A stretch of DNA of 64,000 nucleotides, taken from positions 275,517-339,516 of the forward strand of contig NZ_STFZ01000014.1 in the NCBI RefSeq assembly GCF_005222845.1, given 5' to 3'. The stretch is from Rhizobium sp. FY34 (GTDB lineage Bacteria; Pseudomonadota; Alphaproteobacteria; Rhizobiales; Rhizobiaceae). A program made the position numbers and the translations under genes. Shown in pieces: positions 25,934 to 42,929 of the stretch (position 1 is its first letter; the number at the start of each line of letters is the position of its first letter). A model generated the notes under the pieces. That model made no database searches, had not been told where the DNA came from, and saw only the letters and a list, made by a program, of their open reading frames with translations.

Positions 25934-26608
25934 TCAAGGGCTGTAAGCCTTCAAGAAGGCTTCTACGCCAGCTCGCGCCATGTTTTTCCGGTACTGCAGA
26001 TCAATTGTATCTGCCAATCCCAGCAAGGCGCGTATCTGCATATCACCGAGAATGCCGCCGAAGAACTGTGCAGCAGCTACGCCGGGTTGCTCGGACCTAA
26101 GCTCTCCTTTCGCCATCGCACTCGCCAGAAAGGTCGCGAATTCATTCATGAGAGCCGCCGGCCCTTCCTCAAAGAAGCGCTTTGCCAGGTCTGGAAACAG
26201 CACGGCCTCTGCGGCGGCGGTTCTGTAAACTGCCACTGTAATCGGCGAGAGCAAAAGATCGATGGCATCGAGCGCGAATTTCTCCAGTACGGAGGCGAGA
26301 GGCTCACCGGGTTTTGATTGCAGGGCAAGGGTGTGCTGACGACCTTCTCGGACTATGATTTCGGAAAAGAGTTTTTCCTTGCACTCAAAATGGGCATAGA
26401 CCGTAGCTTTTCCGACATTTGCGCGCTGTGCGATCGCGTCCATGGTCGTCGCGCCGAAGCCGCGCTCTGCGAAAAGATCTCGGGCAGCCTTCAGGATCTT
26501 CTCGCTCTTCACCTGAGACAGAGATCCGCGCTCTCGCCTGACGGGGGCAGGATTGTCGTTTTTCATGCGTTCAGTTTCATCAGCTTTCATCCGGTAGCCG
26601 TATACCAT
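25934..26608 (-). CDS. TetR-family transcriptional regulator
   Basis: A 224-residue repressor. The HTH is ATTMDAIAQRANVGKATVYA followed by HFECKEKLFSEII, the TetR signature. The ligand domain ends ARAGVEAFLKAYSP. I chose the Met at 26608 because GGAGA lies eight bases upstream. Other in-frame Mets at 26590 and 26566 remain possible. It is 37 bases downstream of maleylacetate reductase on the same strand, so it probably belongs to and controls the hydroxyquinol operon. The palindrome at 35536 is a candidate target too. Confidence 0.85.
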   Translation of the reverse strand: MVYGYRMKADETERMKNDNPAPVRRERGSLSQVKSEKILKAARDLFAERGFGATTMDAIAQRANVGKATVYAHFECKEKLFSEIIVREGRQHTLALQSKPGEPLASVLEKFALDAIDLLLSPITVAVYRTAAAEAVLFPDLAKRFFEEGPAALMNEFATFLASAMAKGELRSEQPGVAAAQFFGGILGDMQIRALLGLADTIDLQYRKNMARAGVEAFLKAYSP

Positions 26609-26645
26609 GATTTTTCTCCGGTTGGTATCGAAGTGGCAGCCGACT

Positions 26646-27713
26646 TCAAGGAGTTGTGCCTTCAAAGGCATTCTGAAGCAGATGACGTATCGTTTCCCTG
26701 TCAAAGGGCTTTGGTGACCAATAGGGGTTCAGGGTCGCAAGTTCTGCAGCCCGATCCAGCTGATCTGCGTTCATTCCGATCTGGGCAAGGTTGGTTGGCG
26801 CTCCGCAGCCCCTTGCAAGGTCCTGAATGGCTTTGGCAGGGCTCCGGTCACCCAGATTGGCCGCGCGTTGAATGCGCTTCATGGCCTGTGGCACTGCGTC
26901 GGAGACGAAACCCGTCACATAGGGCAGCATTACCGTATGCGTTTCCGCGTGAGGCAGATCAAAGGAGCCTCCCAGCACATGGCATAACTTGTGATGGATC
27001 GACATACTGACCGATCCCAGGCAGGAGCCGGCAAGCCAAGCTCCCTGGAGAGCGAGACACCTGCCGTCGATGCTTTGAGGGTACCGGTGGATGAGTGGCA
27101 AGGCGCCCATCAGATTACTGATCGCCTCCTGTGCCATAAGAGATATGATCGGATTACCATCTTGCGCATAGAGGGCCTCCACCGCATGGGCCATCGCATT
27201 CATGCCGCTTGTCACGCTGAGGGTGGTTGGCAATCCAAGGGTCAGCTCCACATCATAAACGGTCGCGGCAGGCAATATTGAAGGTGCCCGCTGGGTCGTT
27301 TTGATCCCATTTTTCGTTTCTCCCAGAATCGGGGTCATTTCAGAACCGGCATAGGTGGTGGGTACCGCAAGATGCGGAAGACCGGTGCGCAATGCCACCG
27401 CTTTTCCAAGGCCGATTGCCGAGCCTCCTCCGACGGAAATTATTCCGTTGGCGGAGGCTCGCGCCAGGTCCGCCATCGCCAAGTCGGTAATGTCTTTGGG
27501 TGTGTGCATCACTGCTCGAGGGCACAGTGCGGCACGAACTGTACCAAGGTGTTCGGCGACATCTGCTGCCATGTCTTGCTGTTCTGCCGTTGAAACGACA
27601 AGAGCATTCGACATTCCAAGCCTTTCGGCTTGCTGTCCAACAAGGCGCCTGGTGCCGCTGCCGAAAATCACGCGGTTGCTGGAGAACTGTAATGAGAAGT
27701 CGAAATCGCTCAC
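26646..27713 (-). CDS. Maleylacetate reductase
   Basis: A 355-residue iron-type alcohol dehydrogenase of the maleylacetate reductase branch, reducing maleylacetate to 3-oxoadipate with NAD(P)H. The Rossmann-like region carries SVGGGSAIGLGKAVA. Metal-binding candidates are in GMNAMAHAVEALY, IHHKLCHVLGG and LPHAETHTVMLPY. Its ATG overlaps the stop of the intradiol dioxygenase by four bases. This is the normal partner of hydroxyquinol 1,2-dioxygenase, whose product it reduces. That pairing makes the assignment strong. Confidence 0.9.
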   Translation of the reverse strand: MSDFDFSLQFSSNRVIFGSGTRRLVGQQAERLGMSNALVVSTAEQQDMAADVAEHLGTVRAALCPRAVMHTPKDITDLAMADLARASANGIISVGGGSAIGLGKAVALRTGLPHLAVPTTYAGSEMTPILGETKNGIKTTQRAPSILPAATVYDVELTLGLPTTLSVTSGMNAMAHAVEALYAQDGNPIISLMAQEAISNLMGALPLIHRYPQSIDGRCLALQGAWLAGSCLGSVSMSIHHKLCHVLGGSFDLPHAETHTVMLPYVTGFVSDAVPQAMKRIQRAANLGDRSPAKAIQDLARGCGAPTNLAQIGMNADQLDRAAELATLNPYWSPKPFDRETIRHLLQNAFEGTTP

Positions 27714-28570
27714 TGTGCAGCCGCCTCCGCAAGTATGAAATCATAGTCCAGCACCAGATAGGGGCGGTCCATCTGCGTGCCGTCTGGGGCAGTACCGGGC
27801 TGACATTCCCGGTAGCGGGTAACGAGCGAGGTCTTGACACCGAACACCACATCGCTTTCCAGGTAGGGATCACCATCGATGAAGACATGTGTCACAAGGG
27901 TTTGGAAGCCCGGTGCTTCAATCATGAAGTGAACGTGTTCCGGCCGGAACGGGTGACGTCCCTGTGCCTCCAGCATCTGGCCGACAGGTCCATCATTGGG
28001 GATCGGGTAGTACTTCGGTTTGACCGACCAGAACCAGAACCTGCCGTCGACATCCGTGCGAAAGCTGCCCCGCATCTTCAGCTCATCGCTGACCTGAACA
28101 TCATAGAAGCCTTCATCGTCGGAATGCCATGTGTCCACGAGGGCCGATAGGGGCGCGCCATCCGGGCCGCGAACTGTTCCGCTCACAAAGAGCGGCACGC
28201 CCGGCACGCCCGGCGATATGTTGTCCCCAAGTGACAGCTGTGGTCGCGTCTCTACAAAGAACGGGCCGAAGACTGTGGTTTCTGTTGCTGCATCTGCCGT
28301 GCGATGATTGATGGCATCGACAAGCATGGATACGCCCAGCGTATCCGACAGGAGAACGAATTCCTGTCGGGTCTCGCTGCACATTTGGCCCACCCGCGTC
28401 AGGAACGAGACACCGAACTCCCATTCCGCCTGGCTGGGCTCGATTTCCCGCACGAAGGCGTGAAGATGACGGACGAGGGATTCGCTGATCTGACGGATCC
28501 GCGGATTCTCAGCCTGCCCGACGGCGCACAGGACTTCCGCCGTTATGCTCTCTTCGTTGAGATCACGCAT
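27710..28570 (-). CDS. Intradiol dioxygenase, probably hydroxyquinol 1,2-dioxygenase
   Basis: A 286-residue non-haem Fe(III) enzyme that opens a catecholic ring between the hydroxyls. Ligands expected for the family are present: Tyr in DEGFYDVQ, Tyr in VKPKYYPIPNDGP, and two His in RPEHVHFMI. The first 100 residues form the helical dimerisation domain of catechol/hydroxyquinol dioxygenases. The HPFRPEHVHF form and the coupled maleylacetate reductase point to hydroxyquinol (1,2,4-trihydroxybenzene). The catechol enzyme of this window (56140) has a different HGNRPAHIHF form. The ribosome-binding site is weak. Confidence 0.85.
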   Translation of the reverse strand: MRDLNEESITAEVLCAVGQAENPRIRQISESLVRHLHAFVREIEPSQAEWEFGVSFLTRVGQMCSETRQEFVLLSDTLGVSMLVDAINHRTADAATETTVFGPFFVETRPQLSLGDNISPGVPGVPLFVSGTVRGPDGAPLSALVDTWHSDDEGFYDVQVSDELKMRGSFRTDVDGRFWFWSVKPKYYPIPNDGPVGQMLEAQGRHPFRPEHVHFMIEAPGFQTLVTHVFIDGDPYLESDVVFGVKTSLVTRYRECQPGTAPDGTQMDRPYLVLDYDFILAEAAAQ

Positions 28571-28613
28571 GGTCGAACTCTTTCATGGCTTCCCGACAAC
28601 GACTGAAAGGCGT

Positions 28614-29213
28614 TTAGCCCACAAACGGCGATCCGCCATTCAGCCAATCCGCGCCACGAGAATAGAGAGCTTCCACTTCCGGTCCCACCAGACCCGGCAT
28701 GTCCGGCTTGACCTTGTAGCCGATGGCGGTCTGCAGATAGGCCAGATGTCGGTAGCCTTCTGGAAAACTGTTCAAACGTTGCTGATCCAGAACAGGTCGC
28801 TCCATCGGATTGACGGCATCGATCCGGTCCTTCTCATAGATCGGCTGACGCACGACAATGCCCCAGCGTCCATCGCGCCGCTCAATGAAATCATAGAATC
28901 GGCCGGTGCAAACCACATCGCACAACACACCTTCGACCACGGCACGTTGGCTGATGGTCATCTTCGTCTGTGCGATCGCACGATCTCCCTTGATGTCGAT
29001 CAGCGTTCCACCGAGGAAATGCAGAATACGAACACCCTTGGCAAAAGCAGCCTTGCTTATCTCGATGAATTCATCCGGCGTCCCCTGAAACCAGGTCGCC
29101 ATCATCCGTCCGTCCGGGTGCCAACATGTGCGAAACCTCTCCCAAAGGCACGCATCGCGCGTGAGCGCCCATTCCTCAATAAGATCCCGGATGGCGTCGC
29201 GTTCTGCTTTCAT
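28614..29213 (-). CDS. NTF2/SnoaL-like protein of an aromatic operon
   Basis: A 199-residue protein with the alpha-plus-beta cone fold of the SnoaL/NTF2 family. The beginning DLIEEWALTRDACLWERFRT and the WFQGTPDEFIE stretch are typical of SnoaL_4-type sequences, which also include small subunits of ring-hydroxylating dioxygenases. No iron site is known in these, and no large subunit is nearby. It is the first gene of the hydroxyquinol operon, with a strong GGGAGGAAG site. It may be a small enzyme (isomerase, decarboxylase or hydratase) acting before ring cleavage. That is a guess. Confidence 0.7.
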   Translation of the reverse strand: MKAERDAIRDLIEEWALTRDACLWERFRTCWHPDGRMMATWFQGTPDEFIEISKAAFAKGVRILHFLGGTLIDIKGDRAIAQTKMTISQRAVVEGVLCDVVCTGRFYDFIERRDGRWGIVVRQPIYEKDRIDAVNPMERPVLDQQRLNSFPEGYRHLAYLQTAIGYKVKPDMPGLVGPEVEALYSRGADWLNGGSPFVG

Positions 29214-29427
29214 GGTCTTCCTCCCTGCGAATTACCGGTGCGGCGAGCGGCTGAAGCTCAGAGGCACCTTCGAAATTGACGCTAAGGCTTCGTTTCATGC
29301 TCTGCCTCATCCGTTCGGATGATGCTGCCCTGCCTTCATTCAGCGAAAGTGCGCACCGTAATGCCGAGCGAGAGCCTCGAGAGGGGATGGTTGTCGCCCG
29401 CCGATGGAAGAATTCTGGGAGGAATGA

Positions 29428-30600
29428 ATGGCCAAGCTATTGCAGTCTATTACCTGTTCGTCGCTGTCACTGCTGCTGTCAACCGCTGTGCCGGTGTTTG
29501 CTCTCGCAGCAGATATCGGCGCCGGCGCGCCGCCCCGTGGGCAGCCGAGCCTCGGCATCCTGACAAGCGCGAACTTGTCGAAGGCGGGTTTGCTTGAGCC
29601 GCTGTTTTCGGAAGAATTGATGGGGTCGATGCAGGCGCGCATCGGGGGGGCGCGCGCAACGGACGGTTATGCAACCTCGCTACCGTCTGGCGTGCCGCAG
29701 CCGAATTACCGTGACCGCGAGCTCTTCTATATTGCCCCGGTCAGCGTCATGTTCGAGCTGCCGTCGTCGGAGGGCGTCAATTTCATACGCCTGGCTGCCG
29801 TCGGCACCTGGGATGATGGCGCCTCGGACACTGCATTGTCTAACAATGGCGATGTGCGGCGTGCGGCGGTGCAGTTCTTCCATGCGACAGATCCCAGCCA
29901 GATCTTCGGCATCGGCGCAAGCTACGAGCGTCGCGATATAGATACGGATATCACCTCGGACGCCCTGGGCAGCTATTTCAACAACAAGTGGGAAGCCTGG
30001 GGCATTCAGGGCTTTTACGCGAAGGATTTCGGAAACAACTGGGGTCTGGAAGCAAAGGCTGAATGGCAAAGCGGACAGCATGATTTCCAGCTCACGCAGT
30101 ACATTGCGCCGGGTCGTGTCTTGCCTATCAGCTATAGCCAGAACGACGACCACCTTTATGGAGAGGTTCAATTCGTTGGCACCTATACGAAAAAGGATGC
30201 CAACTGGATTCCGGATGGTCTCGTTCTGCACCCGTCCGTGGGTATTACGTTCCAGCGCAATTATCTTGAAGAAGTGCGCAACTCCATGGGTGCTCTTGTC
30301 TCCGGCGCTGCCGGGCGGACAGAGGATTATGGCCTTCTGCTTGCAACGCTTAGGCTTGAAAAGGAGCAGGCGCTATCACCGGAATTGCAATTCCTGCCCA
30401 ATATGACAGTCGGCATTGAGCATGAATACGTCCACGATCTGGCGCTCTTCCAGAAGGATCCGACCTACGCCGTCGTAGGTGCAGGCTTCACGCTGACTGC
30501 CTACGGCCAGCGACTGGATGTCGGCTACAAGCTGCGGCAGGGTTTGAACGGCGAACGTCAGTATCAGACCTTCTCGACCGTGCTTGCATTCTCATTTTGA
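29428..30600 (+). CDS. Outer-membrane beta-barrel protein, probable aromatic-compound channel
   Basis: A 390-residue exported protein. The signal peptide runs to about residue 27 (STAVPVFALAA). The rest is rich in alternating Tyr/Phe/Gly strands, and the end TFSTVLAFSF with a terminal Phe is the mark of outer-membrane barrels. It could belong to the family linked to phenol meta-cleavage genes, but I would not insist. It heads the plus-strand half of the aromatic cluster, and a stable hairpin follows it. Passive uptake of a hydrophobic aromatic is the likely role. GGGAGGAATGA precedes the ATG. Confidence 0.75.
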   Translation: MAKLLQSITCSSLSLLLSTAVPVFALAADIGAGAPPRGQPSLGILTSANLSKAGLLEPLFSEELMGSMQARIGGARATDGYATSLPSGVPQPNYRDRELFYIAPVSVMFELPSSEGVNFIRLAAVGTWDDGASDTALSNNGDVRRAAVQFFHATDPSQIFGIGASYERRDIDTDITSDALGSYFNNKWEAWGIQGFYAKDFGNNWGLEAKAEWQSGQHDFQLTQYIAPGRVLPISYSQNDDHLYGEVQFVGTYTKKDANWIPDGLVLHPSVGITFQRNYLEEVRNSMGALVSGAAGRTEDYGLLLATLRLEKEQALSPELQFLPNMTVGIEHEYVHDLALFQKDPTYAVVGAGFTLTAYGQRLDVGYKLRQGLNGERQYQTFSTVLAFSF

Positions 30601-30615
30601 CAATTGCGCACCTGC

Positions 30616-30677: not shown

Positions 30678-32084
30678 ATGGATAACGCTTTACCATCTCA
30701 TGTCCAACAGGGCGTAGCTGATCCGGTTTCTGCCGTATCGTCCATGACGCTGACGCAAGCCCTTCAGGCAGCGGACCGAGCAGCTGCAGCGTTTGATCAA
30801 TGGTCGAAAGTGGGGCCGACCGAACGTCGGCGCATTCTTCTGCGTGCGGCTGATCTCTTCGAGGCGGGCAAGGAACGCCTTGCGCAGGCGATGGCATCTG
30901 AAACCGGTGCCGCGCCGGCCTGGATCGGCTTCAATGCCATGCTTTCTGCCTCTCTCATCCGCGAGGCGGCGGCGCTGACCACCCAGATTACCGGCCAGGT
31001 CTTTCAATCCGATCACATGGAAAACCTTTCTATGGCGATGCGTATTCCTGCGGGCGTAGTCCTGAGCATCGCGCCCTGGAACGCACCGGCCATCCTCTCG
31101 GTCCGTGCGATTGCAACGCCGCTCGCCTGCGGCAATACGGTTGTCCTCAAGGCGTCGGAACTGTGCCCGCGCACCCATCGCACGATCGTGGATCTCTTCC
31201 TGGAGGCGGGTGTTCCCGAGGGCGTTCTCGAATTCGTGACCCACGAGGCTCAGGATGCCGCTGCAATCGTGGAGGCCCTGATTGCCCATCCCAAAGTGCG
31301 CCGCGTGAATTTCACCGGGTCGACGCGTGTGGGGCGCATCATCGGCGAGACTGCTGGACGTCATCTGAAGCCCGCTCTGCTTGAGCTGGGTGGGAAGGCG
31401 CCGCTCATCGTGCTCGATGATGCCGACCTCGACGAGGCCGTCAGCGCTGCCGCATTCGGCGCTTACATGCATCAGGGGCAGATCTGCATGTCCACGGAAA
31501 AGCTGGTTGTGGATGAGAGGGTTGCCGATCTCTTCGTCGAGAAACTGGCTGCCAAGGCCGCGACTTTGACAGCTGGAAATCCGGCGAAAACCAATGCGGT
31601 TCTCAGTTCGGTCATCGACCAGAATGCGGTCAAGCGTGTTGCCGATCTGGTTGCCGATGCACTTGCCAAGGGTGCAACGCAGCGGGCTGGTGGCCGCGTG
31701 GAGGATACCTATGTCGATGCAATTCTGCTTGATCATGTCACTCCGGACATGAAGGTCTATCATGAGGAAACCTTCGGCCCCTGCGTGAGCGTGATCCGCG
31801 TCAAGGACGTGGACGAGGCGGTTCGAGTTGCCAACGATACCGAATACGGACTTGCAGCCGCTATCTTCGGGCGCGACGTGGATCGTGCACTGAGCGTCGG
31901 TCGACGGATTGAAAGCGGACTGGTTCATATCAATGGTCCAACCGTTCAGGATGAGGCGCATGTTCCCTTTGGCGGTGTGAAGGCCAGCGGTTATGGCCGC
32001 TTCAATGGACAACCGAGCATCGATTTCTTCACGGAACTGAAGACGCTCACGATCCAGCACGGCCACAGGCACTACCCGATTTGA
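30678..32084 (+). CDS. Aromatic aldehyde dehydrogenase (salicylaldehyde/vanillin type)
   Basis: A 468-residue aldehyde dehydrogenase. SIAPWNAPAIL is the cofactor turn, LLELGGKAPLIVLDDADLDE carries the general base Glu, and HQGQICMSTEKL carries the catalytic Cys. The GQICMSTE form is shared by salicylaldehyde and vanillin dehydrogenases. The gene overlaps the frame of the following hydratase-aldolase, which would supply an aromatic aldehyde. That matches the nahE-nahF logic of naphthalene degradation. It could also oxidise the aldehydes made by the carotenoid-oxygenase-family enzyme at 35567. Confidence 0.88.
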   Translation: MDNALPSHVQQGVADPVSAVSSMTLTQALQAADRAAAAFDQWSKVGPTERRRILLRAADLFEAGKERLAQAMASETGAAPAWIGFNAMLSASLIREAAALTTQITGQVFQSDHMENLSMAMRIPAGVVLSIAPWNAPAILSVRAIATPLACGNTVVLKASELCPRTHRTIVDLFLEAGVPEGVLEFVTHEAQDAAAIVEALIAHPKVRRVNFTGSTRVGRIIGETAGRHLKPALLELGGKAPLIVLDDADLDEAVSAAAFGAYMHQGQICMSTEKLVVDERVADLFVEKLAAKAATLTAGNPAKTNAVLSSVIDQNAVKRVADLVADALAKGATQRAGGRVEDTYVDAILLDHVTPDMKVYHEETFGPCVSVIRVKDVDEAVRVANDTEYGLAAAIFGRDVDRALSVGRRIESGLVHINGPTVQDEAHVPFGGVKASGYGRFNGQPSIDFFTELKTLTIQHGHRHYPI

Positions 32085-32140
32085 TCCCATCTACGCCGCC
32101 CGTCTCGGGCGCACGGGCTTCTGCATGGAGAATGAAGATC

Positions 32141-33130
32141 ATGACAAAACGATTTGAACTGACCGCCGCCGATATCAAGGGTGTCTGGGCCATCGTTCCG
32201 ACACCGTCCAACAGCGAAGTGGGCGATATCGGTTCAAGCACTACCGTGGACCTTGACGAGGCGGCGCGGGTGGTGGATGCGCTGGTTACGACTGGCGTGG
32301 ATGGCATTCTGTCGCTGGGCACATTCGGCGAATGTGCGACGCTCACCTGGGGCGAGAAGCGCAGCTTCATGGCAACGATTGCCGAGGCGGCGCGCGGGCG
32401 CGTGCCGGTCTTCGGCGGCACGACCACGCTCAACACACGCGATACGATCGAGCAGACCCGTCAACTCCCCGATCTTGGCATCAGCGGAACAATGCTGGGG
32501 TTGCCGATGTGGGTGCGTTGCGACGAGGATACGGCAGTGCGTTTCTATCAGGATGTGGCGGAAGCCTGCCCTGATGTGGCCATCTGCCTCTATGCCAATC
32601 CGCAGGCATTCAAGTTCGATTACCCGACGTCGTTCTGGTCGCGCGTAAGCTCGATCCCGCAGATTGTCAGCGCAAAATACCTGTCCATGGCGCGCCTTGC
32701 CGTAGACCTCGAAGCCGTCGGCGGCAGAATTGCCTTACTTCCAAACGAAGTTGAATACCCGAAGGCTGCCGAGCTTCATCCAGACGCTGTCTCCGCCTTC
32801 TGGTCCAGTTCTGCGACCACCGGCCCCAATACGGTGCTTGCGCTGCGCGATGCGGTTGCCTTCGCCAAGGCAAGCCATGACTGGAGCGCCGTTCAAGCCA
32901 TGGACAGCGACATACACAAAGCGGAAGCGGGTTTCTTTCCGAACGGCGATTTCGCTGAATTCTCAAAATATAACATCATTCTGGAAAAGGCCCGTATGGA
33001 CGCAGCCGGCTGGATGCGTGCCGGACCTGTGCGGCCGCCCTATCGTGAAGCACCGGCCGATTATGTGGCGGGCGCCCGTCGGTCTGGCGAGGCCTGGGCT
33101 TCGCTCCACAAGCGATATGCAAGCCGCTGA
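32141..33130 (+). CDS. Hydratase-aldolase, NahE-like (DapA superfamily)
   Basis: A 329-residue class I aldolase of the dihydrodipicolinate-synthase fold. Family members hydrate and cleave trans-o-hydroxybenzylidenepyruvate (or close analogues) into an aromatic aldehyde plus pyruvate. LTAADIKGVWAIVPTPS and DGILSLGTFGECATLTWGEK are characteristic of this branch, and VSAKYLS holds the Schiff-base Lys. The first in-frame ATG is at 32081, inside the preceding gene. I chose 32141 because GGAG lies 11 bases before it. Its presence between an aldehyde dehydrogenase and an extradiol dioxygenase indicates a meta-type pathway on a fused-ring or vinylogous substrate. Confidence 0.85.
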   Translation: MTKRFELTAADIKGVWAIVPTPSNSEVGDIGSSTTVDLDEAARVVDALVTTGVDGILSLGTFGECATLTWGEKRSFMATIAEAARGRVPVFGGTTTLNTRDTIEQTRQLPDLGISGTMLGLPMWVRCDEDTAVRFYQDVAEACPDVAICLYANPQAFKFDYPTSFWSRVSSIPQIVSAKYLSMARLAVDLEAVGGRIALLPNEVEYPKAAELHPDAVSAFWSSSATTGPNTVLALRDAVAFAKASHDWSAVQAMDSDIHKAEAGFFPNGDFAEFSKYNIILEKARMDAAGWMRAGPVRPPYREAPADYVAGARRSGEAWASLHKRYASR

Positions 33131-33166: not shown

Positions 33167-34366
33167 ATGAATGCCGAAGTTTTGGACCATGCCATGCGCG
33201 AAGCAGGCCTGATAGAGCAGGCGCGCGCAATGATGCCGGAACTCAAGCGGCGTGCTCGCGCCGCCGAGGCTGCACGCATGCTGCAGACCGAAACAATTGA
33301 TGATTTCCGCAAGGCGGGCTTCTTCAAGATCCTGCAATCGCCTGCCTATGGGGGCTTTGGGCTATCGCCTCTCACTCTCTGCCGTGTCGTCTTCGAGGTT
33401 GGCCGGGGAGATATGTCCGCCGGTTGGGTGCTGTTCGTTCTTGCCCTGCACCAGTATGAGGTTACTCTCATGGGTGAGGCTGCCTGTGAAACGATCTGGG
33501 GTGAGAACCCTGACGCACTGGTTGCTTCTTCGGTTGCTCCCTTTGGAGCGCTGGAGCGGGTAGAAGGCGGCTTCAGATTGAATGGACGCTGGCGCTTCAG
33601 CAGCGGCATCGATCATTCCGACTGGGTTGGCGTCGGCGGGCTCGTTGCCAATCTGGACGGCAAGGGCAAGGACTTCCGCATGTCCTTGATCCCTACGAAA
33701 GACGCAAGGATCGATCCACAGTCGTGGAATCCGTTCGGTCTTGCGGGAACGGGCAGCAAGGACCTCGACATCGATAACGTATTTGTGCCGGAGCATCTGA
33801 GCTTCAGCCTTGTCGATGCCCATCGAATGATCGGACAGGACAAGCTGTCTCGCAACTTCCGCTATCCTTTCTGGATCGTGTTCAACGCGGTTCTCGGCGC
33901 GGCCATTATCGGCGGTGCGAATGGCGGCGTGGACGAAGCAATTGAGCAGATGTCGGTTCGCGTTGGTTCGGCAGATAACGGGAATGGCAAACAGGCGGCC
34001 GCTGACGATCACTTCGTGCGCATGAGGGTTGGCCGTGCACGAGTTCTGGTTCGCACTGCGCAGGCGCGCTACAGCGCTATATTCGCGGAGATGGACGATT
34101 ACATCTCCAAGGGCGAAGCGATCCCGGTCGAGCAGCGTATGCATTACATCGCAGAGATTGCCCAATGTGGCCGTGATTGCGAGGAGGCCGTGCTGACCCT
34201 CTACAAGACCACCGGAGGGCGCGGTATTTCCTTGGACAACAATATGCAGGCCATTCTGCGCAACGTGCTGGCAGGCGCCAATCACGTGGCGATGAACCTT
34301 GACCCCATGCTGCAAAACCTTGGGGGACAATTGCTGGGCGGCGAGATTCCGCCGGTGATGTGCTGA
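33167..34366 (+). CDS. Acyl-CoA-dehydrogenase-fold flavin monooxygenase (HsaA/DszC-like)
   Basis: A 399-residue protein of the group D flavin monooxygenases, which use reduced FMN or FAD from a partner reductase to hydroxylate an aromatic ring. The acyl-CoA-dehydrogenase fold is shown by GDMSAGWVLFVLALHQYEVT, FRLNGRWRFSSGIDHSDWV and the terminal TGGRGISLDNNMQAILRNVL. The catalytic Glu of true acyl-CoA dehydrogenases is not evident. The reductase likely serving it lies 6.7 kb away (41064). It is followed by the extradiol dioxygenase that would cleave its catecholic product. Confidence 0.85.
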   Translation: MNAEVLDHAMREAGLIEQARAMMPELKRRARAAEAARMLQTETIDDFRKAGFFKILQSPAYGGFGLSPLTLCRVVFEVGRGDMSAGWVLFVLALHQYEVTLMGEAACETIWGENPDALVASSVAPFGALERVEGGFRLNGRWRFSSGIDHSDWVGVGGLVANLDGKGKDFRMSLIPTKDARIDPQSWNPFGLAGTGSKDLDIDNVFVPEHLSFSLVDAHRMIGQDKLSRNFRYPFWIVFNAVLGAAIIGGANGGVDEAIEQMSVRVGSADNGNGKQAAADDHFVRMRVGRARVLVRTAQARYSAIFAEMDDYISKGEAIPVEQRMHYIAEIAQCGRDCEEAVLTLYKTTGGRGISLDNNMQAILRNVLAGANHVAMNLDPMLQNLGGQLLGGEIPPVMC

Positions 34367-35535: not shown

Positions 35536-35554
35536 GAACTGAACGGTTCAGTTC
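35536..35554. promoter_or_regulatory. Perfect 19-bp palindromic operator at the transcription start
   Basis: GAACTGAACGGTTCAGTTC has perfect 9-bp arms around one G. It covers the expected start of transcription and ends just before the GGGAGG ribosome-binding site, a repressor position. TetR-type proteins favour such sites, and the TetR product encoded at 25934-26608 is the nearest candidate. I did not find a second copy before the TetR operon. Confidence 0.75.
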
Positions 35555-35566: not shown

Positions 35567-37039
35567 ATGGACACGTTTACCCCATCAGTGCCTCATGGCC
35601 TCAGATTTCCCCAAGGCGTCGCATTCGACGGCTGGTTTGCCCCCAGCCGCGTGGAGGCGGATGTCTATGACCTTGAGGTGATTGGTCGCATTCCCGAAGT
35701 CATGAATGGTGCCTACTACAAGGCAGCCGCCGATCCGCAGTATCCGCCGCTGCTCGGCGAGGCCATCTACCTCGACGGTGACGGCATGGTCACGATGCTG
35801 CGTCTGGAAAATGGTCATGCCGATCTGAGAACGCGCTATGTTCGCACGCCCCGTTTCATTGCTGAGCGTGAAGCACGTCGCTCTCTGTTCGGCAAATATC
35901 GCAATCCCTTCTTCGACGATCCTGCCGCAGAAGGCGTGGAGCGCGGCACGGCCAACACGGCCATCGGCTGGCATGCGGGCAAGCTGTTTGCCTTGAAGGA
36001 AGACAGCCGGCCAATCGAGCTGGATCCCAATACGCTCGATACAATCGGCTATTACGATTTCGACAAGCGGCTAACCCAGGGCACGTTCACGGCTCATCCC
36101 AAGATTGACCCGGAAACAGGCGAGCTGATTGCATTCTCCTATAATGCGGAAGGTATCGGCAGCACGACGATCTGGACCCACGTTATCTCGCCGGATGGTC
36201 AGAGCGTTCAGTCGGAATCCTTCGAGGCCCCCTATGCGTCGATGGTACATGACTTCCTGGTTTCCCGGAACTACATCGCCTTCACGATCCATCCCATGGT
36301 CAACGATCTGGAACTGGTCAAGCGCGGCGAACCCTTCTTCCGCTGGATGCCTGAACGCGGTGCACGGGTAGCGGTCATTCCGCGCAAGGGCGGCGTCGGC
36401 GGCATTCGCTGGTTCAACTGCCCCACCCCCGTCATGGAGGCGCATACGATCAATGCTTTCGATGAAAACGGGGTGCTCTATCTCGATCACGATATTCAGC
36501 AGTCTGGCTGGTTCTCCCAGTTCCCGTCGGAAAATCAGCCGCCGCACCATGAAGCACCGCCGATTGCACAGCGCTGGCGTTTCGACATGAACAGCCTGGC
36601 AGACGAATACCAGGTTCGCGATCTGACGGACGATCCGGGTGAAATGCCTGCAGTCGATCCGCGCTTCCTGATGCGCGAGGCACGCCATGTTTTCATGGGT
36701 TGCGTCAATCCCAAGCTGGGCCCGTTTGCGGAATTCGGTCCATTCGGACCTCCCTTCAACGCTGTCGTTCGGATTGATACGCAATCAGGTGCGCGCAAAT
36801 ACTACTATGCAGGTCCGACATCGGCGCCAGAAGAACCAGTCTTCGTGCCGAAATCCGCCGATGCACCTGAAGGCGATGGATGGATCATCACGATTGTTGA
36901 GCGTCGAACGGAAAACCGCAGCGATTTCGTGATCCTCGACTCCGCTACGATGGAACCGGTTGCCACGATCAAGGTTCCGTTCCGGTTGCGTTACGGCTTC
37001 CATGGCAAGTGGCTTTCAGCCGCCGAACTCGGCTGGTGA
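35567..37039 (+). CDS. Carotenoid-oxygenase-family dioxygenase (lignostilbene dioxygenase type)
   Basis: A 490-residue non-haem Fe(II) enzyme that splits a carbon-carbon double bond with O2 into two aldehydes. The four iron His are visible in order: FTAHPK, MVHDF, MEAHTIN and the terminal YGFHGKW. Bacterial members of this length usually cleave stilbenes (lignostilbene, resveratrol), not carotenoids. It has no signal peptide. It is transcribed from its own strong operator-controlled promoter, and an aromatic aldehyde dehydrogenase is in the same cluster. An aryl-alkene substrate is therefore likely, which is inference. Confidence 0.88.
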   Translation: MDTFTPSVPHGLRFPQGVAFDGWFAPSRVEADVYDLEVIGRIPEVMNGAYYKAAADPQYPPLLGEAIYLDGDGMVTMLRLENGHADLRTRYVRTPRFIAEREARRSLFGKYRNPFFDDPAAEGVERGTANTAIGWHAGKLFALKEDSRPIELDPNTLDTIGYYDFDKRLTQGTFTAHPKIDPETGELIAFSYNAEGIGSTTIWTHVISPDGQSVQSESFEAPYASMVHDFLVSRNYIAFTIHPMVNDLELVKRGEPFFRWMPERGARVAVIPRKGGVGGIRWFNCPTPVMEAHTINAFDENGVLYLDHDIQQSGWFSQFPSENQPPHHEAPPIAQRWRFDMNSLADEYQVRDLTDDPGEMPAVDPRFLMREARHVFMGCVNPKLGPFAEFGPFGPPFNAVVRIDTQSGARKYYYAGPTSAPEEPVFVPKSADAPEGDGWIITIVERRTENRSDFVILDSATMEPVATIKVPFRLRYGFHGKWLSAAELGW

Positions 37040-37203
37040 TTTTCGGTCCGGGCGCAGGAGCCTGAGATCGTTCGCCGACGGACCGATTGGTTCGTCGGCG
37101 CGTCCAGAAGATGGCCGCTGCGATTTCTAGGCTGCGTCCGGAATGGCGCCATCCTGTTCAGTTTCACGTTTTCATAGCGAAGCAAGTTTCTTGGGAGGGA
37201 AAA

Positions 37204-38385
37204 ATGCAAGCCAAAGAGAGCCGCACCGTGTGGTTTGCTCTGATGCTCGGCCATGTCGCCGGCATGCTCGATCTCATTATTCTGCCATTGTGGGTGAGCG
37301 GTCTCATGACCGGCTTCGGCTTTGGCGCTGCCAGCGTCGGCAGTCTGGTTACGCTCTATCTCGCCGGAACATTGTGCGCCAACGCGCTGCTGGCACGCAG
37401 GTTCGATAGTCTGCCGCCGCGTGTTGTTGCAGGTACCGGTTTCGTAGTCGCTGCCCTTGCGTTCATCATGATGACGGAAGTGAAGTCGTGGGATGAGGCT
37501 TCGCACTACTCTCTGCTGGCCATTCTGAACTTTGTGGCCGGGGCAGGGGCGGGTGCCGGTCTGGCGACGATCCATGGCCTCATTGGACGGAGCATCAACC
37601 CGCATCGCCTGTTTGCCTTCGTAAATTTCGGCATCAGCATCTGGGCTATCGTGTTTTTCGGGGCAACTCCCGGATTGATGGCGCGTTTCGGCGTCAACGG
37701 TCTGTTCGCCATCGTCGCCGGCATGTTCATTGCGGCGGTTGCTGCCATGCTTTTCGGCCTGCCCAGACGGGTGCCGGAGAAAAGGCAGTTGCAAAGCGAC
37801 CGGGCAGGCACCACTGCGCCGCCTGTCGTCCTGGCGCTGTGTTTTGCCGGGGTGGTATTTCTGCAAGCCGGACAAGCCATGACGAATTCCTTCGTCGAGC
37901 GGATCGGGAACTACCGCGGCTTCACCTCCAGCCAGATCGAGTGGGTTCTCATCGCAGCTTCGGTTCTGGTGCTGATTTCGCCGCTCATTGCAGGTCTGCT
38001 CCAGAACAAGCTGGCCCCGCTCACTGTTGCAATCGGTGGCCTCTTGTTCCACGGCTGCCTGTGCGCCACGGTCTCCACCTCCACCAGCTTCGTGCCCTAT
38101 GCGATCGCAACCTCGATGATGGTGATGACGGTGGTCTTCGTCCACACCTTCGTTTTCGGGCTGCTGGCTGCTCTGGAGCCAAGCGGCCGTACCAATGCGG
38201 CGACCCCTTCCATGCTGATGATTGGTACCGCCGTTGGGCCATCGGTTGGAGGTTTCATGGCGCAGGCATTTGGTTTTTCCTCGATCGGATTTGCGGCTTT
38301 TGTTTCCGCATGCCTCGGCGCGGCCTGCTTTTTTCTGGTTCGGCGCAAGCTTGCACACCAGACGACAGCGACCGTCGCTGTCTGA
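37204..38385 (+). CDS. MFS transporter
   Basis: A 393-residue carrier with about 12 membrane segments. The ATG follows TTGGGAGGGAAA, which rules out the earlier start at 37087. The C-terminal half has TFVFGLLAALEPSGRTNAAT, a block also present in the decayed gene at 11687. It lies 165 bases after the carotenoid-oxygenase gene and 37 before the GlcG-like gene. It probably imports the aromatic substrate of this cluster. Confidence 0.87.
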   Translation: MQAKESRTVWFALMLGHVAGMLDLIILPLWVSGLMTGFGFGAASVGSLVTLYLAGTLCANALLARRFDSLPPRVVAGTGFVVAALAFIMMTEVKSWDEASHYSLLAILNFVAGAGAGAGLATIHGLIGRSINPHRLFAFVNFGISIWAIVFFGATPGLMARFGVNGLFAIVAGMFIAAVAAMLFGLPRRVPEKRQLQSDRAGTTAPPVVLALCFAGVVFLQAGQAMTNSFVERIGNYRGFTSSQIEWVLIAASVLVLISPLIAGLLQNKLAPLTVAIGGLLFHGCLCATVSTSTSFVPYAIATSMMVMTVVFVHTFVFGLLAALEPSGRTNAATPSMLMIGTAVGPSVGGFMAQAFGFSSIGFAAFVSACLGAACFFLVRRKLAHQTTATVAV

Positions 38386-38862: not shown

Positions 38863-38873
38863 GGAGAGGGCGC

Positions 38874-39815
38874 ATGAAGACGATCATCGTCCATGACGAC
38901 GCCGCAGACTGGTACTGCTCGGCTCTTGCCGATCTTCCCGGCTGCCGCTTCGTGCCATCAACCGCTGTCACTTCGGCAAGCGCGATGGATGTGGAGGCTC
39001 TGATCGCCTTCGCGCCTTCAACTCCGGCCTCTCTGCTGGAAAGCCTGCCCGCCCTTCGCTGGATCCACTCTCTGACTGCGGGGGTGGACAGGCTTATGGC
39101 CATGCCCGCACTTGGGCGTGGTGTGGCGGTCACCACCAGCAGCGGCATTCATGGTCCGCAAATGTCGGAGATGGCCTTCTTGCTGATGCTGGCCGCCGCC
39201 CGTCAGTTTCCCGCCATGATAGCCAATCAGGCCGCAGCCCACTGGGAGCGGTGGCCGCAGCCGCTGCTGTTGAACAAGACAGCCTGCATCGTCGGGCTTG
39301 GCGCCATAGCCGAAACTCTGGTTGAACGCTGCCGTGCCTTCGGCATGCGCGTAACGGGCGTCTCTTCCGGCAGAAGCGACATGGCCGGCGTCGATAGAAT
39401 ATACCCGCGTGAGGCACTGCGGGAAGCGGCTGCCGAGGCCGACTTTCTCATAGTTCTGGTTCCCTATGCAGCCTCCACCCATCATCTGATCGACGCTTCT
39501 GTCCTTGCATCCATGAAGCGGTCGTCGATCTTGATCAATCTCTCGCGGGGCGGTTGCGTCGACGAGGACGCGCTTTGCAAGGCGTTGCGTGCCGGCAATT
39601 TGTTCGCGGCGGGATGCGACGTGTTCAGCCAGGAGCCGCTGCCAAGCGACAATCCACTCTGGTCATTACCCAATCTGATCGTAACGCCACATGTCGGCGG
39701 CTGGAGCGATGTCTACGCCGAGCAGACAGTGCCGCTGCTGCGCCGCAACCTGCAACGTTTTCTGGCGGGCGATATCGACGGGCTTGAAAATCTTGTTTCG
39801 AGGAATCATGCATGA
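38874..39815 (+). CDS. D-2-hydroxyacid dehydrogenase (NAD-dependent)
   Basis: A 313-residue enzyme of the D-isomer 2-hydroxyacid dehydrogenase family, interconverting a 2-hydroxy and a 2-oxo acid. The Rossmann motif is VGLGAIAETLVERCRAFGM. The catalytic Arg is in LINLSRGGCVD, the Glu in CDVFSQEPLP, and the His in VTPHVGGW. The stop overlaps the next ATG by four bases. In this cluster it might reduce a 2-oxo acid released by the aldolase or an arylpyruvate, which is a guess. Confidence 0.87.
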   Translation: MKTIIVHDDAADWYCSALADLPGCRFVPSTAVTSASAMDVEALIAFAPSTPASLLESLPALRWIHSLTAGVDRLMAMPALGRGVAVTTSSGIHGPQMSEMAFLLMLAAARQFPAMIANQAAAHWERWPQPLLLNKTACIVGLGAIAETLVERCRAFGMRVTGVSSGRSDMAGVDRIYPREALREAAAEADFLIVLVPYAASTHHLIDASVLASMKRSSILINLSRGGCVDEDALCKALRAGNLFAAGCDVFSQEPLPSDNPLWSLPNLIVTPHVGGWSDVYAEQTVPLLRRNLQRFLAGDIDGLENLVSRNHA

Positions 39816-40993
39816 CACGCTTCCGCTCTGGCATTTCCGATCAGGAATTATCCCGCCGCTGGTCGCTGGTGCGCCAGTGGATGCGCGAGGCCGATATTGA
39901 CGTGCTGGTGATGCAGGGCGCGCAGGACTGGCTGGGTGGCATGGTTCGCTGGTTTACGGATTTTCCGGCAACCGCCGGCTACCCGCGGACCGTTCTTTTC
40001 TTCGCGGAAGGGCCAATGACCCTTGTGGAGATGGGCCCCTTTAACGGCAATCGTGTTCCTCCGATAGATGAACCCACCTATCGAGGTGTCGGCCGTGTCC
40101 TCACGATGCCTTCCTTTTCTTCCGCCCATTTCACCCATGGCTACGACCGTGATCGAGTTCTGGACGAACTGACACAGCGCGGCCTGAAACGCGTGGGCGT
40201 GGTCAATCCGGGGGCGCTGCCGCACGTGTTGATGCAGTCGCTTCTGGAGCGCTTTGGCTCGCTGGTCGATACGACCGATGTCATTGACACCTTCAAGGCG
40301 GTCAAGAGTGAAGAAGAGCTGGGCCGTCTTCGTGAGGTTGCTCATCTGCAGGACGATATATTTGCACAGGTTCTCGATTTCATACGGCCCGGCCTGAAGG
40401 ATATCGATGTCGCCAATTTTGCTCAGGCAGAAGCGCACCGGCGTGGCAGCGACCAGGGCATTCTTCTCGGCGTGTCCGCGCAACTCGGCTCGTCGGCCCG
40501 CTTTGGCGGTCGCGCCGTTCAGGGCAGGGAATTACATGCGGGCGACCACCTTACGCTTCTGATTGAAGTCAATGGCGCGTGTGGAATGTATACCGAAATC
40601 GCCCGTACGATTGTTCTGGGTACGGCCAGCGATAAACTGCTCCAGGCGTTCGACAATGTCCGTCGCGCGCAGGATCACACTCTCTCCCTGATCCGAGCCG
40701 GGGCATTGCCGGCCGATATTGCCCAGGCGCACGATGCCTGGATGCAGGCAGAGGGCCTGCCGGTTGAAACACGTCTTTACGCGCACGGCCAGGGACAGGA
40801 TCTGGTGGAGCGTCCCCTGATCCGCCATGACGAGACGATGCCGCTCGCCGCGGGGATGTGTCTAGCGGTGCACCCAAGCTATGACGACGGATCGGTCTTC
40901 GCAGTGATCTGCGACAACTACATCGTGGAAGCAAATGGCGTCAGCGAATGCCTCCACCGAACTGAGAAGAAAATTTTCGAGAAATATGTCTGA
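39812..40993 (+). CDS. M24-family (creatinase/prolidase-fold) protein with altered metal site
   Basis: A 393-residue protein with the N-terminal creatinase domain (about 15-170) and a C-terminal pita-bread M24 fold. In metallopeptidases five ligands (D, D, H, E, E) hold two metals. Here the first Asp region reads IEVNGACG, the second YTEIART, the His is kept in YAHGQGQD, the fourth position reads AGMCLAVHPSY where Glu is expected, and the fifth reads AVICDNYIVEAN where Glu is replaced by Cys. So at most part of the site remains, as in creatinase, which is metal-free. It may hydrolyse a C-N bond of a small molecule rather than a peptide. Confidence 0.75.
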   Translation: MTRFRSGISDQELSRRWSLVRQWMREADIDVLVMQGAQDWLGGMVRWFTDFPATAGYPRTVLFFAEGPMTLVEMGPFNGNRVPPIDEPTYRGVGRVLTMPSFSSAHFTHGYDRDRVLDELTQRGLKRVGVVNPGALPHVLMQSLLERFGSLVDTTDVIDTFKAVKSEEELGRLREVAHLQDDIFAQVLDFIRPGLKDIDVANFAQAEAHRRGSDQGILLGVSAQLGSSARFGGRAVQGRELHAGDHLTLLIEVNGACGMYTEIARTIVLGTASDKLLQAFDNVRRAQDHTLSLIRAGALPADIAQAHDAWMQAEGLPVETRLYAHGQGQDLVERPLIRHDETMPLAAGMCLAVHPSYDDGSVFAVICDNYIVEANGVSECLHRTEKKIFEKYV

Positions 40994-41063
40994 GAGACCC
41001 AAGAGGGTGCTGGCAGGTTGATCCTGCAAGCGCCGGTTCGAACGATTGCAGGAGGAACCCAGA

Positions 41064-41555
41064 ATGGACGACCTGATACAGAGCTTCAAAGCTACCATGG
41101 CACGCTACCCGGCCGGTGTGGTCGTGGTGACAACGACCGATGAGGAAGGTCGCGCCTACGGCTTTACCGCGACTTCATTTTCATCCCTGTCGCTGAAGCC
41201 GCCGTCGATCATCGTATGTCTGGCCAACACCGCCTATTGCTACAATGCTTTCGTCAATTCGCGCCATTTCGCCGTGCATTTCATTGATGCTGAAGACAGC
41301 GCGCTCGCCATGGGATTTGCGAGCAAGGGCATCGACAAGTTCAGCGGCGTGAAGGTCGATCTTTCTGCAGAAGGCGTTCCGCTTCTGAAGGACAGCGTTG
41401 CCGTGCTTGAATGTGGAGCCGGCGGGCATTTCGTCAGCGGCGATCATGCAATTCTGATCGGGAATGTTTTGCGCACCAAGGTCAGCGACGACCGCGACGT
41501 TCTCGTCCACTACCGCAGACAGTTTGGCAAGGTCAGCATGCCCGCAGCAATCTGA
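41064..41555 (+). CDS. Flavin reductase (HpaC/HsaB-like)
   Basis: A 163-residue NAD(P)H:flavin oxidoreductase that supplies free reduced flavin to a monooxygenase. MARYPAGVVVVTTTDEEGRA and YGFTATSFSSLSLKPPSIIV are the family's flavin-binding hallmark. The end GDHAILIGNVLRTKV is also typical. AGGAGGAA ahead of ATG 41064 decides the start. The probable partner is the monooxygenase at 33167, and no other flavin-dependent two-component oxygenase is in the cluster. Confidence 0.9.
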   Translation: MDDLIQSFKATMARYPAGVVVVTTTDEEGRAYGFTATSFSSLSLKPPSIIVCLANTAYCYNAFVNSRHFAVHFIDAEDSALAMGFASKGIDKFSGVKVDLSAEGVPLLKDSVAVLECGAGGHFVSGDHAILIGNVLRTKVSDDRDVLVHYRRQFGKVSMPAAI

Positions 41556-41596
41556 GCCGCAATTCACCCACTGCAACGCGAATGGAGGAGCATCGC

Positions 41597-41791
41597 ATGT
41601 GTGCAGGTATGAAGATTTGCAATGTAAGTGTATGCGAAGGCAAGTGCGCGGGGAACGGCAGGCGATGGCAGGAGGCGCTGGCCATCGTATCACCCGTCAC
41701 GCCGACACCTGAGTTGCCGTGTGCGGAAAAACCCAGTTCGGTCGGTGGTTCACAAAACCCCGTGCGTGGGGTTGGCCAACATGCGCAATGA
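41597..41791 (+). CDS. Possible small Cys-rich protein (64 aa)
   Basis: The frame begins MCAGMKICNVSVCEGKCAGN, with Cys at 2, 8, 13 and 17 and a fifth at about 44, then a Pro-rich tail. GGAGGA stands at ideal distance (9 bases) before the ATG, better than for the next gene. The stop overlaps the start of the LuxR gene by 11 bases. This could be a metal-binding micro-protein, a leader peptide for the regulator, or just an open frame. I do not recognise it. Confidence 0.35.
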   Translation: MCAGMKICNVSVCEGKCAGNGRRWQEALAIVSPVTPTPELPCAEKPSSVGGSQNPVRGVGQHAQ

Positions 41792-42929
41792 ACCCTTCAG
41801 TGCCATGCCCTCCCTGGGCTTCTCCCACCTGATGTTTGGAAGCAGCCCTGACGACGGCGACTTTCCAGACCTCGATGCAGGCGTCCTCACCATTCGCCGC
41901 AAGCTTTCGGTCGAACACGCGGCCCTGATCTTCCGGGCTGCCGATTCGCCTTCGAATATATCCGGCATTACGATCTCCACCGATCAGTCGACCCAATGGA
42001 ACGGTCCTCGTCAAGAGGCACGTTATCTGGATACATTCAGGGTCAGAGATCCCTTCGTGAACCTGCCTGTAGGGCGCCCCGTAGTCATTCAGGAATTCCA
42101 AGATGAAGGAACATGGAACAGCAATGATTTCTATCAGCAGTTCCTTAAACCCATGGGCGTGTTCCATGTGATGGGCGTCGATCTGGCCGCAAAACCTGGC
42201 ATGATATGCAGTTTGCGGATCTGCAGAAGCCAACTTGCGGGCCGCTTCATGGAAGATGAGTTAGCCTATCTCTCGTCGCTTTTGCCGGACATCGCGCGTT
42301 TTATCAAACTGCGGGTGCGCCTGAACGAGATGGAAATGCAATCGCGCATGCTTGATACGGTAACCGAGCGGCTCGATATCGGCGTCGTGCTTGTCGACGA
42401 CAGTATGCGGATCCTGCAATATGTGGGAAACGATGCTGAAAAACGTCTTGAAAAGCGAGGATTTCTGGTCTCCGGCGGACGATTGCGCGCCAAGTCTTCA
42501 GCGCGCAATCGCGAACTCCAGAGTCTCGTCCAGAATGCAGCGAACGCGACGGCGGGTACCAGTCTTGCATGCCGGTTTGAGCGAATCGACGACGATGCAG
42601 CACTCGGCGTTGTCGTGAAGCAAATGGCGCATCGTGTGGTACAGGGTGAATTTCATCAGCGCCCTTCGATCATGGTCATGTTCCGCGATCTGAACGCGGA
42701 TAGCGGCGTCTCGGAGGAACGTGTCAAATGGATGTTCGATTTGACTGGAGCAGAAGCAAGGCTGGCTCGTCTATTGACGGAAGGTATGAGCCTGGATGAA
42801 GCGGCTGCTCATCTGAATGTCAGCCGCAACACCCTGCGCAGTCACTTGAGAGTACTCTTCCTCAAAACGCATACATCCCGACAATCCGAACTTATGCGAA
42901 AGTTGATGTCGAGTTTGGCCCTACTCTGA
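41781..42929 (+). CDS. LuxR-type regulator (C-terminal HTH)
   Basis: A regulator of about 382 residues. The last 65 residues form the LuxR helix-turn-helix: LTGAEARLARLLTEGMSLDE, then AAAHLNVSRNTLRSHLRVLF. The N-terminal 280 residues show no receiver phosphorylation site and no clear acyl-homoserine-lactone pocket. The segment 185-300 has a PAS-like feel (LDIGVVLVDDSMRILQYVGN). It lies at the end of the aromatic cluster and may sense its substrate. The start could be 41781 or 41805. No strong ribosome-binding site precedes either, so coupling to the small frame upstream is possible. Confidence 0.8.
   Translation: MRNEPFSAMPSLGFSHLMFGSSPDDGDFPDLDAGVLTIRRKLSVEHAALIFRAADSPSNISGITISTDQSTQWNGPRQEARYLDTFRVRDPFVNLPVGRPVVIQEFQDEGTWNSNDFYQQFLKPMGVFHVMGVDLAAKPGMICSLRICRSQLAGRFMEDELAYLSSLLPDIARFIKLRVRLNEMEMQSRMLDTVTERLDIGVVLVDDSMRILQYVGNDAEKRLEKRGFLVSGGRLRAKSSARNRELQSLVQNAANATAGTSLACRFERIDDDAALGVVVKQMAHRVVQGEFHQRPSIMVMFRDLNADSGVSEERVKWMFDLTGAEARLARLLTEGMSLDEAAAHLNVSRNTLRSHLRVLFLKTHTSRQSELMRKLMSSLALL

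Follow-up and report, generated by a model that had tools for sequence, protein, structure and literature searches.

Does the gene cluster described here encode one route for the breakdown of an aromatic compound, or several routes that happen to adjoin? The cluster, referred to below as the island, occupies positions 25934-42929 of a 64,000-nucleotide stretch of Rhizobium sp. FY34 (contig NZ_STFZ01000014.1, positions 275,517 to 339,516), which is the window of this analysis. An initial annotation had recognized stilbene-, naphthalene-, and hydroxyquinol-type steps in the island and had read them as one pathway that ends in 3-oxoadipate. We favor, with slightly less than even confidence, a composite catabolic island that handles a hydroxylated aromatic, either stilbenoid or of a naphthol-like fused-ring type, through one pathway; this is the likeliest single reading and not an established one. 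The enzyme families are ordinary, and it is their combination that is new.

Predicted enzymes of the island

The island consists of two divergent gene sets, one on each strand, and every enzyme class named in the initial annotation is encoded there as a full-length family homolog. Outward from the divergent region, the minus strand carries genes for a decarboxylase-like protein, hydroxyquinol 1,2-dioxygenase, maleylacetate reductase, and a TetR-family regulator. The plus strand begins with genes for an outer membrane protein (OMP), an aldehyde dehydrogenase (ALDH), a hydratase-aldolase, the oxygenase component of a flavin monooxygenase (FMO), and an extradiol dioxygenase. After a 272-bp gap come genes for a carotenoid cleavage oxygenase (CCO) and a major facilitator superfamily (MFS) transporter, and after a further gap of 488 bp come those for a D-2-hydroxyacid dehydrogenase, an M24-family protein, a flavin reductase, and a LuxR-like regulator. 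As judged by sequence comparison, the PDB homology scores of the island enzymes are far above chance. Per-gene GC content (0.545 to 0.611) gives no hint of foreign DNA.

Ring hydroxylation and meta cleavage are represented by adjacent genes. The FMO (33167-34366, plus strand) is an HsaA-like group D enzyme with the 3-HSA hydroxylase 2rfq as its best PDB match, and the flavin reductase (41046-41555, plus strand; profile match) is its presumed partner. The type I extradiol dioxygenase (34389-35294, plus strand) has catechol 2,3-dioxygenases as PDB relatives, and its residues H148, H210, and E261, which we take to be the metal ligands, are invariant in all eight aligned sequences. It is 42 to 50% identical to seven relatives, some of them in naphthalene- or naphthol-type clusters, including the enzyme of the Agrobacterium Sta004 cluster (49%). 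The relative from Sagittula MA-2 lies in a naphthalene/naphthol-type cluster context, according to the report on that strain (PMC11705938). The upper pathway for naphthalene and naphthol includes extradiol cleavage of 1,2-dihydroxynaphthalenes, a reaction for which homology makes the island enzyme a candidate.

The hydratase-aldolase (32081-33130, plus strand; the true start is probably an ATG about 17 to 20 codons inside) has the NahE entries 9frt and 6dao as its best PDB relatives and matches NahE at 3.3e-127, PhdJ at 1.1e-93, and dihydrodipicolinate synthase (DHDPS) next at 7.3e-15. It is thus closer to NahE than to other aldolases of the DHDPS fold, and it keeps K198 (motif AKYL, inside the aligned block) and Y171 (motif YANP), presumably the Schiff-base lysine and the conserved tyrosine of NahE-type enzymes. 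The substrate of such enzymes is an aryl-vinyl-pyruvate, a product of ring cleavage in fused-ring systems. The ALDH (30678-32084, plus strand) falls in the salicylaldehyde/vanillin dehydrogenase group, with matches to salicylaldehyde dehydrogenase 6qhn (9.5e-164), vanillin dehydrogenase 9ihb (1.4e-157), and NahF 4jz6 (1.8e-148).

The CCO (35567-37039, plus strand) has lignostilbene-type dioxygenases as its best PDB matches (5v2d, 6xm6, and 6ojr) and scores 488 bits against an NCBIfam cut-off of 800. It keeps the iron-binding histidines H177, H228, H293, and H479 together with Y111 and K144, the tyrosine and lysine for the 4-hydroxyl group. In LSD4, the equivalent Tyr and Lys bind the 4-hydroxyl and Phe-59 stacks against the substrate (PMC8191317).

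The lower pathway is represented on the minus strand, where the genes for hydroxyquinol 1,2-dioxygenase (27710-28570) and maleylacetate reductase (26646-27713; PDB 3hl0, 1.7e-111) overlap. The intradiol enzyme matches hydroxyquinol 1,2-dioxygenase 1tmx at 1.1e-83, versus 2.7e-32 for the best catechol 1,2-dioxygenase, and we rejected a catechol dioxygenase identity on this comparison.

A putative cofactor-free decarboxylase beside the hydroxyquinol genes

The initial annotation had overlooked a gene at 28614-29213 on the minus strand, beside that of hydroxyquinol dioxygenase. Its product is a SnoaL_4 protein of 199 residues whose sole PDB relatives at E 0.001 are the yeast gallate decarboxylase AGDC1 (6w54) and 7jmr, with 64 of 189 aligned positions identical to AGDC1 (34%). 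The entry 7jmr was deposited as pea pathogenicity protein 2 and corresponds to PPP2 of the AGDC1 structure paper (PMC7862292). All eight AGDC1 residues examined (W35, R39, D40, T60, W61, H86, Y150, and Q192) are kept, both here and in 11 of 11 homologs compared, that is, in 12 of 12 rhizobial-type sequences. The structure paper describes these residues as catalytic or substrate binding, comprising a His-Asp dyad, a Trp clamp, and substrate contacts; it also judges the lactic acid bacterial homologs considered earlier to be without the catalytic side chains and presents enzymes of this type as wanted in biotechnology because no prenylated flavin is needed (PMC7862292). The window protein resembles the fungal cofactor-free decarboxylases AGDC1 and PPP2 in these respects and differs from them in being bacterial and in adjoining a hydroxyquinol dioxygenase; from its homology and active-site residues it is a putative decarboxylase. 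Features of AGDC1-type enzymes are hydroxybenzoate decarboxylation and a K+-binding trimer; an AlphaFold2 model of the island protein (mean pLDDT of 57.2) was too weak to use. A plus-strand frame at 28545-29279 was rejected as a gene, as it has no family match and the opposite frame encodes this conserved protein.

The initial annotation's "conversion to hydroxyquinol" had been left without an enzyme, and the product of 28614-29213 is, on homology, residue conservation, and its position next to the hydroxyquinol dioxygenase gene, the best candidate for a step from an aromatic acid to hydroxyquinol or resorcinol. Whichever reading of the pathway holds, the island suggests that bacteria have a family of putative cofactor-free hydroxybenzoate decarboxylases.

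The neighborhoods of this gene elsewhere bear on that assignment. Among 82 matching plasmid records, four contexts were opened, and in three of them the decarboxylase gene stands with those for maleylacetate reductase and an intradiol (hydroxyquinol) dioxygenase: Sinorhizobium meliloti Rm41 (73, 51, and 68% identity to the window proteins for decarboxylase, reductase, and dioxygenase, respectively), Agrobacterium 15-1187-1-2a (70, 49, and 45%), and Shinella WSD5-1 (69, 42, and 50%). In the fourth, a Bradyrhizobium elkanii plasmid, the two neighbors are missing. On the level of whole genomes, the decarboxylase occurs in 8 of 199 genomes of the family, that of FY34 included, and 10 neighboring proteins from four loci were scanned. 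Among the neighbors at locus L097 are a shikimate dehydrogenase domain and xylose isomerase-like barrels; those at L100 include a GCV_T-domain protein, and those at L098 both a P450 match and a class III aminotransferase. The first of these contexts would fit protocatechuate as a source, and the second would fit a LigM-like methoxybenzoate demethylase. Because plasmid and family-genome neighborhoods differ, the link between decarboxylase and hydroxyquinol genes is recurrent and not general, and the substrate may vary with context. L097 and L100 possibly belong to other aromatic-acid routes that use an AGDC1-type decarboxylase.

Proposed route to 3-oxoadipate

From the enzyme families and their neighborhood, we infer an order of reactions, a class of substrate, a role for the CCO, and the unity of the pathway. 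The FMO, together with the flavin reductase, would hydroxylate a phenolic ring to a catechol; this is its most likely function because the FMO and extradiol genes are adjacent both here and in Diaphorobacter (L012) and lie close together in Arthrobacter sp. MA-N2 (L024). The extradiol dioxygenase would open the catechol ring, the NahE-type aldolase would release pyruvate and a hydroxybenzaldehyde, and the ALDH would oxidize the latter to a hydroxybenzoate. The same order had been proposed in the initial annotation; it agrees with the homologies, and the functions are co-located in MA-N2, Agrobacterium Sta004, and Pseudaminobacter. The AGDC1-type decarboxylase could then convert 2,4,5- or 2,3,5-trihydroxybenzoate directly to hydroxyquinol; a single step to hydroxyquinol requires an acid with three hydroxyl groups, for instance the 2,4,5-isomer. 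Alternatively, 2,4-dihydroxybenzoate could be decarboxylated to resorcinol, and the FMO already used for the first hydroxylation might also hydroxylate this product. The conversion to 3-oxoadipate would be completed by hydroxyquinol dioxygenase and maleylacetate reductase. The CCO would act upstream by cutting a 4-hydroxystyryl bond and passing the aldehyde to the same ALDH.

Support for this single route comes from homology to characterized enzymes at each predicted step, the upper-route neighbors in Arthrobacter sp. MA-N2 and genome G927, the frequent company of extradiol relatives and NahE-type aldolases (17 of 22 loci), the link between the decarboxylase and hydroxyquinol genes on plasmids, the eight AGDC1 residues kept by the decarboxylase, and the divergent region common to both strands. 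In addition, FAD_binding_3 matches 22 places in the genome, and among the best eight, which were named, none passes the salicylate 1-monooxygenase cut-off. The operons of both strands begin at this region (29214-29427, 214 bp), which favors joint control without proving it. It contains an inverted repeat at 29304-29325 with 10-base arms that are 90% complementary. The chance estimate for this repeat covers that one sequence, which matches only itself on the two strands, and several other inverted repeats were listed as well.

A more specific version of the route seems to us rather unlikely. In it, a plant compound derived from a polyhydroxylated naphthalene or stilbene would yield a trihydroxybenzoate by way of extradiol cleavage and the hydratase-aldolase, and direct decarboxylation of this acid to hydroxyquinol would link fused-ring meta cleavage to the hydroxyquinol pathway, bypassing salicylate, catechol, and gentisate. 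Coumarins (daphnetin and esculetin), juglone, and lawsone were considered as substrates, but their extradiol cleavage would not be expected to give an aldolase product that leads to hydroxyquinol. The literature searched, which included few subscription journals, showed no such combined pathway, no association of the decarboxylase with hydroxyquinol genes on plasmids of rhizobia, and no bacterial protein with a complete AGDC1 active site. If the modules do cooperate, the island would convert phenolics of the fused-ring or stilbenoid type to hydroxyquinol by a route without counterpart in that literature.

Distribution of the modules in other genomes

The initial annotation had named separate, unlinked loci in relatives as a finding that would refute its reading. 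This is partly what is seen: in relatives, parts of the set stand in separate loci, and the whole set is in none of the loci opened or scanned, which reveals a patchy, composite set without demonstrating that the parts function separately in FY34. By sequence, the parts look like three modules that are found apart elsewhere: a naphthol-type set, a porin-MFS-CCO-ALDH set as in Agrobacterium larrymoorei, and the decarboxylase-hydroxyquinol dioxygenase-maleylacetate reductase set of the three rhizobial plasmids.

For the first module, a pattern scan for extradiol relatives in a collection of 84,980 species gave 22 loci, several of them short or ending near the gene. With flank matches listed at E 1e-8 over more than 80 residues, a NahE-type aldolase match was found in the flanks of 17 loci, and none of the 22 had a listed match to the window CCO, hydroxyquinol dioxygenase, decarboxylase, maleylacetate reductase, OMP, or MFS transporter. 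One of the loci is that of Arthrobacter sp. MA-N2, where FMO, reductase, aldolase, extradiol dioxygenase, and ALDH (30, 27, 41, 48, and 31% identity, respectively) lie within 5.7 kb and NahD has no match at the locus. Genome G927 (L118) carries FMO, aldolase, reductase, and ALDH; a Rieske dioxygenase and a NahD-like gene are present as well, and its extradiol enzyme is of a different kind. Agrobacterium Sta004 and Pseudaminobacter likewise group the upper-route functions, in clusters of the naphthol/salicylate type. Pseudaminobacter salicylatoxidans (L022) has two ALDH-aldolase-NahD-extradiol sets within about 11 kb. For the second module, the A. larrymoorei identities are 37% for both OMP and MFS, 52% for CCO, and 55% for ALDH, with a weak extradiol match at 28%.

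Individual enzymes of the island are sparsely distributed among related genomes. Counting FY34 itself, the extradiol enzyme occurs in 2 of 199 family genomes (E 1e-30), the aldolase in 3 of 397 order genomes (E 1e-60), and the CCO in 2 of 397 order genomes (E 1e-120, weaker CCO genes uncounted); the FMO occurs in 4 of 57 genus genomes at E 1e-40 and in 8 of 385 class genomes at E 1e-60. Matching plasmid records numbered 412 for the extradiol enzyme, 362 for FMO, 540 for aldolase, 101 for CCO, and 166 for the M24 protein, from which 6, 1, 2, 3, and 2 contexts were opened, respectively. Among viral contigs, one stretch matched a pattern and none encoded a relative.

One pathway or several

Several observations weigh against a single pathway. 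The modules exist apart in other genomes, two large gaps (272 and 488 bp) divide the plus strand, and the flavin reductase gene lies about 6.7 kb from that of the FMO oxygenase, behind genes with no obvious role. In all seven other family genomes, a search to a distance of about 8 kb from the decarboxylase gene revealed neither hydroxyquinol dioxygenase nor maleylacetate reductase, and hydroxyquinol dioxygenase homologs, present in four of six other genomes tested, showed no link to extradiol loci. The CCO has L69 where LSD4 has the stacking Phe-59; Leu also occupies this position in the A. larrymoorei CCO, whereas three other CCOs compared have Phe, and the substitution weakly suggests a CCO subgroup with a different substrate. 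The FMO is 30 to 31% identical to FMOs encoded beside maleylacetate reductase in the three other genus members, presumably GraA (resorcinol hydroxylase), and reaches 41.5 and 43% in proteins elsewhere. No named core enzyme passes the NCBIfam cut-off of any equivalog that it matched, so the names given here are family-level names and substrate-level names are unwarranted.

The isomerase of the naphthalene route adds to these points. One Pfam model (PF01323) and one query revealed no NahD, either in the cluster or elsewhere in the genome, in contrast to NahD matches in the flanks of 9 of the 22 extradiol loci. The model hits three genomic places that lack similarity to the NahD of locus L005 at E 1e-3, and as a control it matches the NahD-like protein of L118 at 3.5e-30. 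A frame at L046 was rejected as NahD; it has a Cys-x-x-Cys motif and no NahD similarity. Without NahD, isomerization would be spontaneous, unneeded, or carried out by another protein. Two hydroxylases elsewhere in the genome count on the same side: among the best eight FAD_binding_3 proteins, L067 and L068 resemble 3-hydroxybenzoate 6-monooxygenase below its cut-off and are possible aromatic-acid hydroxylases. Another of the eight, L062, is a 4-hydroxybenzoate 3-monooxygenase.

Under a second explanation, two or three independent pathways are neighbors: a naphthol/salicylaldehyde-type route, a stilbene-cleaving route, and a hydroxyquinol route fed by another acid (e.g., one derived from protocatechuate or some other hydroxybenzoate), which would have transporters and perhaps regulation in common but not intermediates. 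We regard this as plausible, although on balance improbable. The occurrence of each module without the others agrees with it, as do the gaps on the plus strand, the presence of two regulators in the interval, and the decarboxylase context at L097, which suggests a protocatechuate-type substrate there. Further inverted repeats at 35428-35454 and 35536-35554, downstream of the extradiol gene and ahead of that for the CCO, raise the possibility that the CCO is controlled separately. However, both strands depart from a single common divergent region, the interval offers one ALDH and one FMO-reductase pair for all modules, and family scans recognized no salicylate or gentisate gene in 25934-42929 that would finish a naphthol route.

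Comparison with known systems shows where the island departs from each. It shares with the nah/nag naphthalene and carbaryl-type 1-naphthol pathways a NahE-type aldolase (53 to 58% identity to those of naphthalene-type clusters), a salicylaldehyde-type ALDH, the extradiol enzyme (49% identity to that of the Sta004 cluster), and a two-component flavin hydroxylase. The hydroxylase is HsaA-like here and HpaB-like in Sta004, however, no NahD was found, and the interval has hydroxyquinol genes in place of salicylate/gentisate genes. With lignostilbene dioxygenase (LSD/NOV) modules it has in common the four histidines, the Tyr/Lys pocket, and the OMP, MFS, and ALDH genes found in A. larrymoorei, but its CCO has Leu for the stacking Phe and stands beside fused-ring-cleavage genes. 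Like the hydroxyquinol lower pathway, including gra-type resorcinol catabolism, it brings a group D FMO together with hydroxyquinol 1,2-dioxygenase and maleylacetate reductase. It differs in that the FMO gene has an extradiol gene as its partner and the FMO itself is only about 30% identical to the genus FMOs beside maleylacetate reductase. The putative decarboxylase of the island is of the AGDC1 type, in contrast to the amidohydrolase type of such pathways.

A stilbenoid pathway alone, in which oxyresveratrol, a trihydroxystilbene, or another 4-hydroxystilbene is the substrate cleaved by the CCO, the ALDH oxidizes the aldehydes, the decarboxylase yields resorcinol or hydroxyquinol, the FMO and reductase act as resorcinol hydroxylase, and the extradiol enzyme and aldolase serve a side product or another substrate, appears quite unlikely: the OMP, MFS, CCO, and ALDH common to A. 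larrymoorei, the Tyr and Lys retained for the 4-hydroxyl, the proximity of the ALDH to vanillin dehydrogenase, and the 4-hydroxybenzoate 3-monooxygenase at L062 speak for it, but the FMO gene directly precedes the extradiol gene, its nearest PDB relative is HsaA, and the NahE-type aldolase has no place in it.

Accessory and flanking genes

Beyond the enzymes listed in the initial annotation, the interval also encodes two regulators, two proteins of the cell envelope (the OMP and the MFS transporter), a D-2-hydroxyacid dehydrogenase, and an M24 protein. The OMP (29428-30600, plus strand) is probably a porin, based on a weak Pfam match below the cut-off and 37% identity to the A. larrymoorei OMP encoded beside its CCO. 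Profile matches identify the MFS transporter (37087-38385, plus strand; start uncertain), the D-2-hydroxyacid dehydrogenase (38874-39815, plus strand), the M24-family protein (39812-40993, plus strand), and a TetR-family regulator with an AefR-like C-terminal domain (25934-26704, minus strand). The LuxR-like regulator (41628-42929, plus strand; start uncertain) has a C-terminal helix-turn-helix that falls below Pfam cut-offs. Promoter and terminator scans gave no excess over shuffled sequence (4 versus 7.1 and 13 versus 15.3, respectively). Counterparts of the dehydrogenase and M24 genes (38874-40993) adjoin each other on Pacificitalea pDY25-C and are about 6 kb apart on Aminobacter MSH1 pUSP2, and a 3-keto-5-aminohexanoate cleavage protein gene is nearby on both.

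The initial annotation's statement that a Rieske dioxygenase is absent holds for the interval, although the window does contain a BenA-type Rieske gene at 57140-58510. This gene belongs to a benzoate locus (54484-60919) in which muconate cycloisomerase, catechol 1,2-dioxygenase, BenA, BenC, and BenD all score above NCBIfam cut-offs. Between the island and this locus, 43096-50366 holds an apparently separate set of genes for a DRL-type oxidoreductase, an IlvD/Edd dehydratase, a 3-hydroxyisobutyrate dehydrogenase-like protein, and a TctC/TctA transporter; DRL homologs occur in 7 of 56 other genus genomes and are merely 48 to 50% identical.

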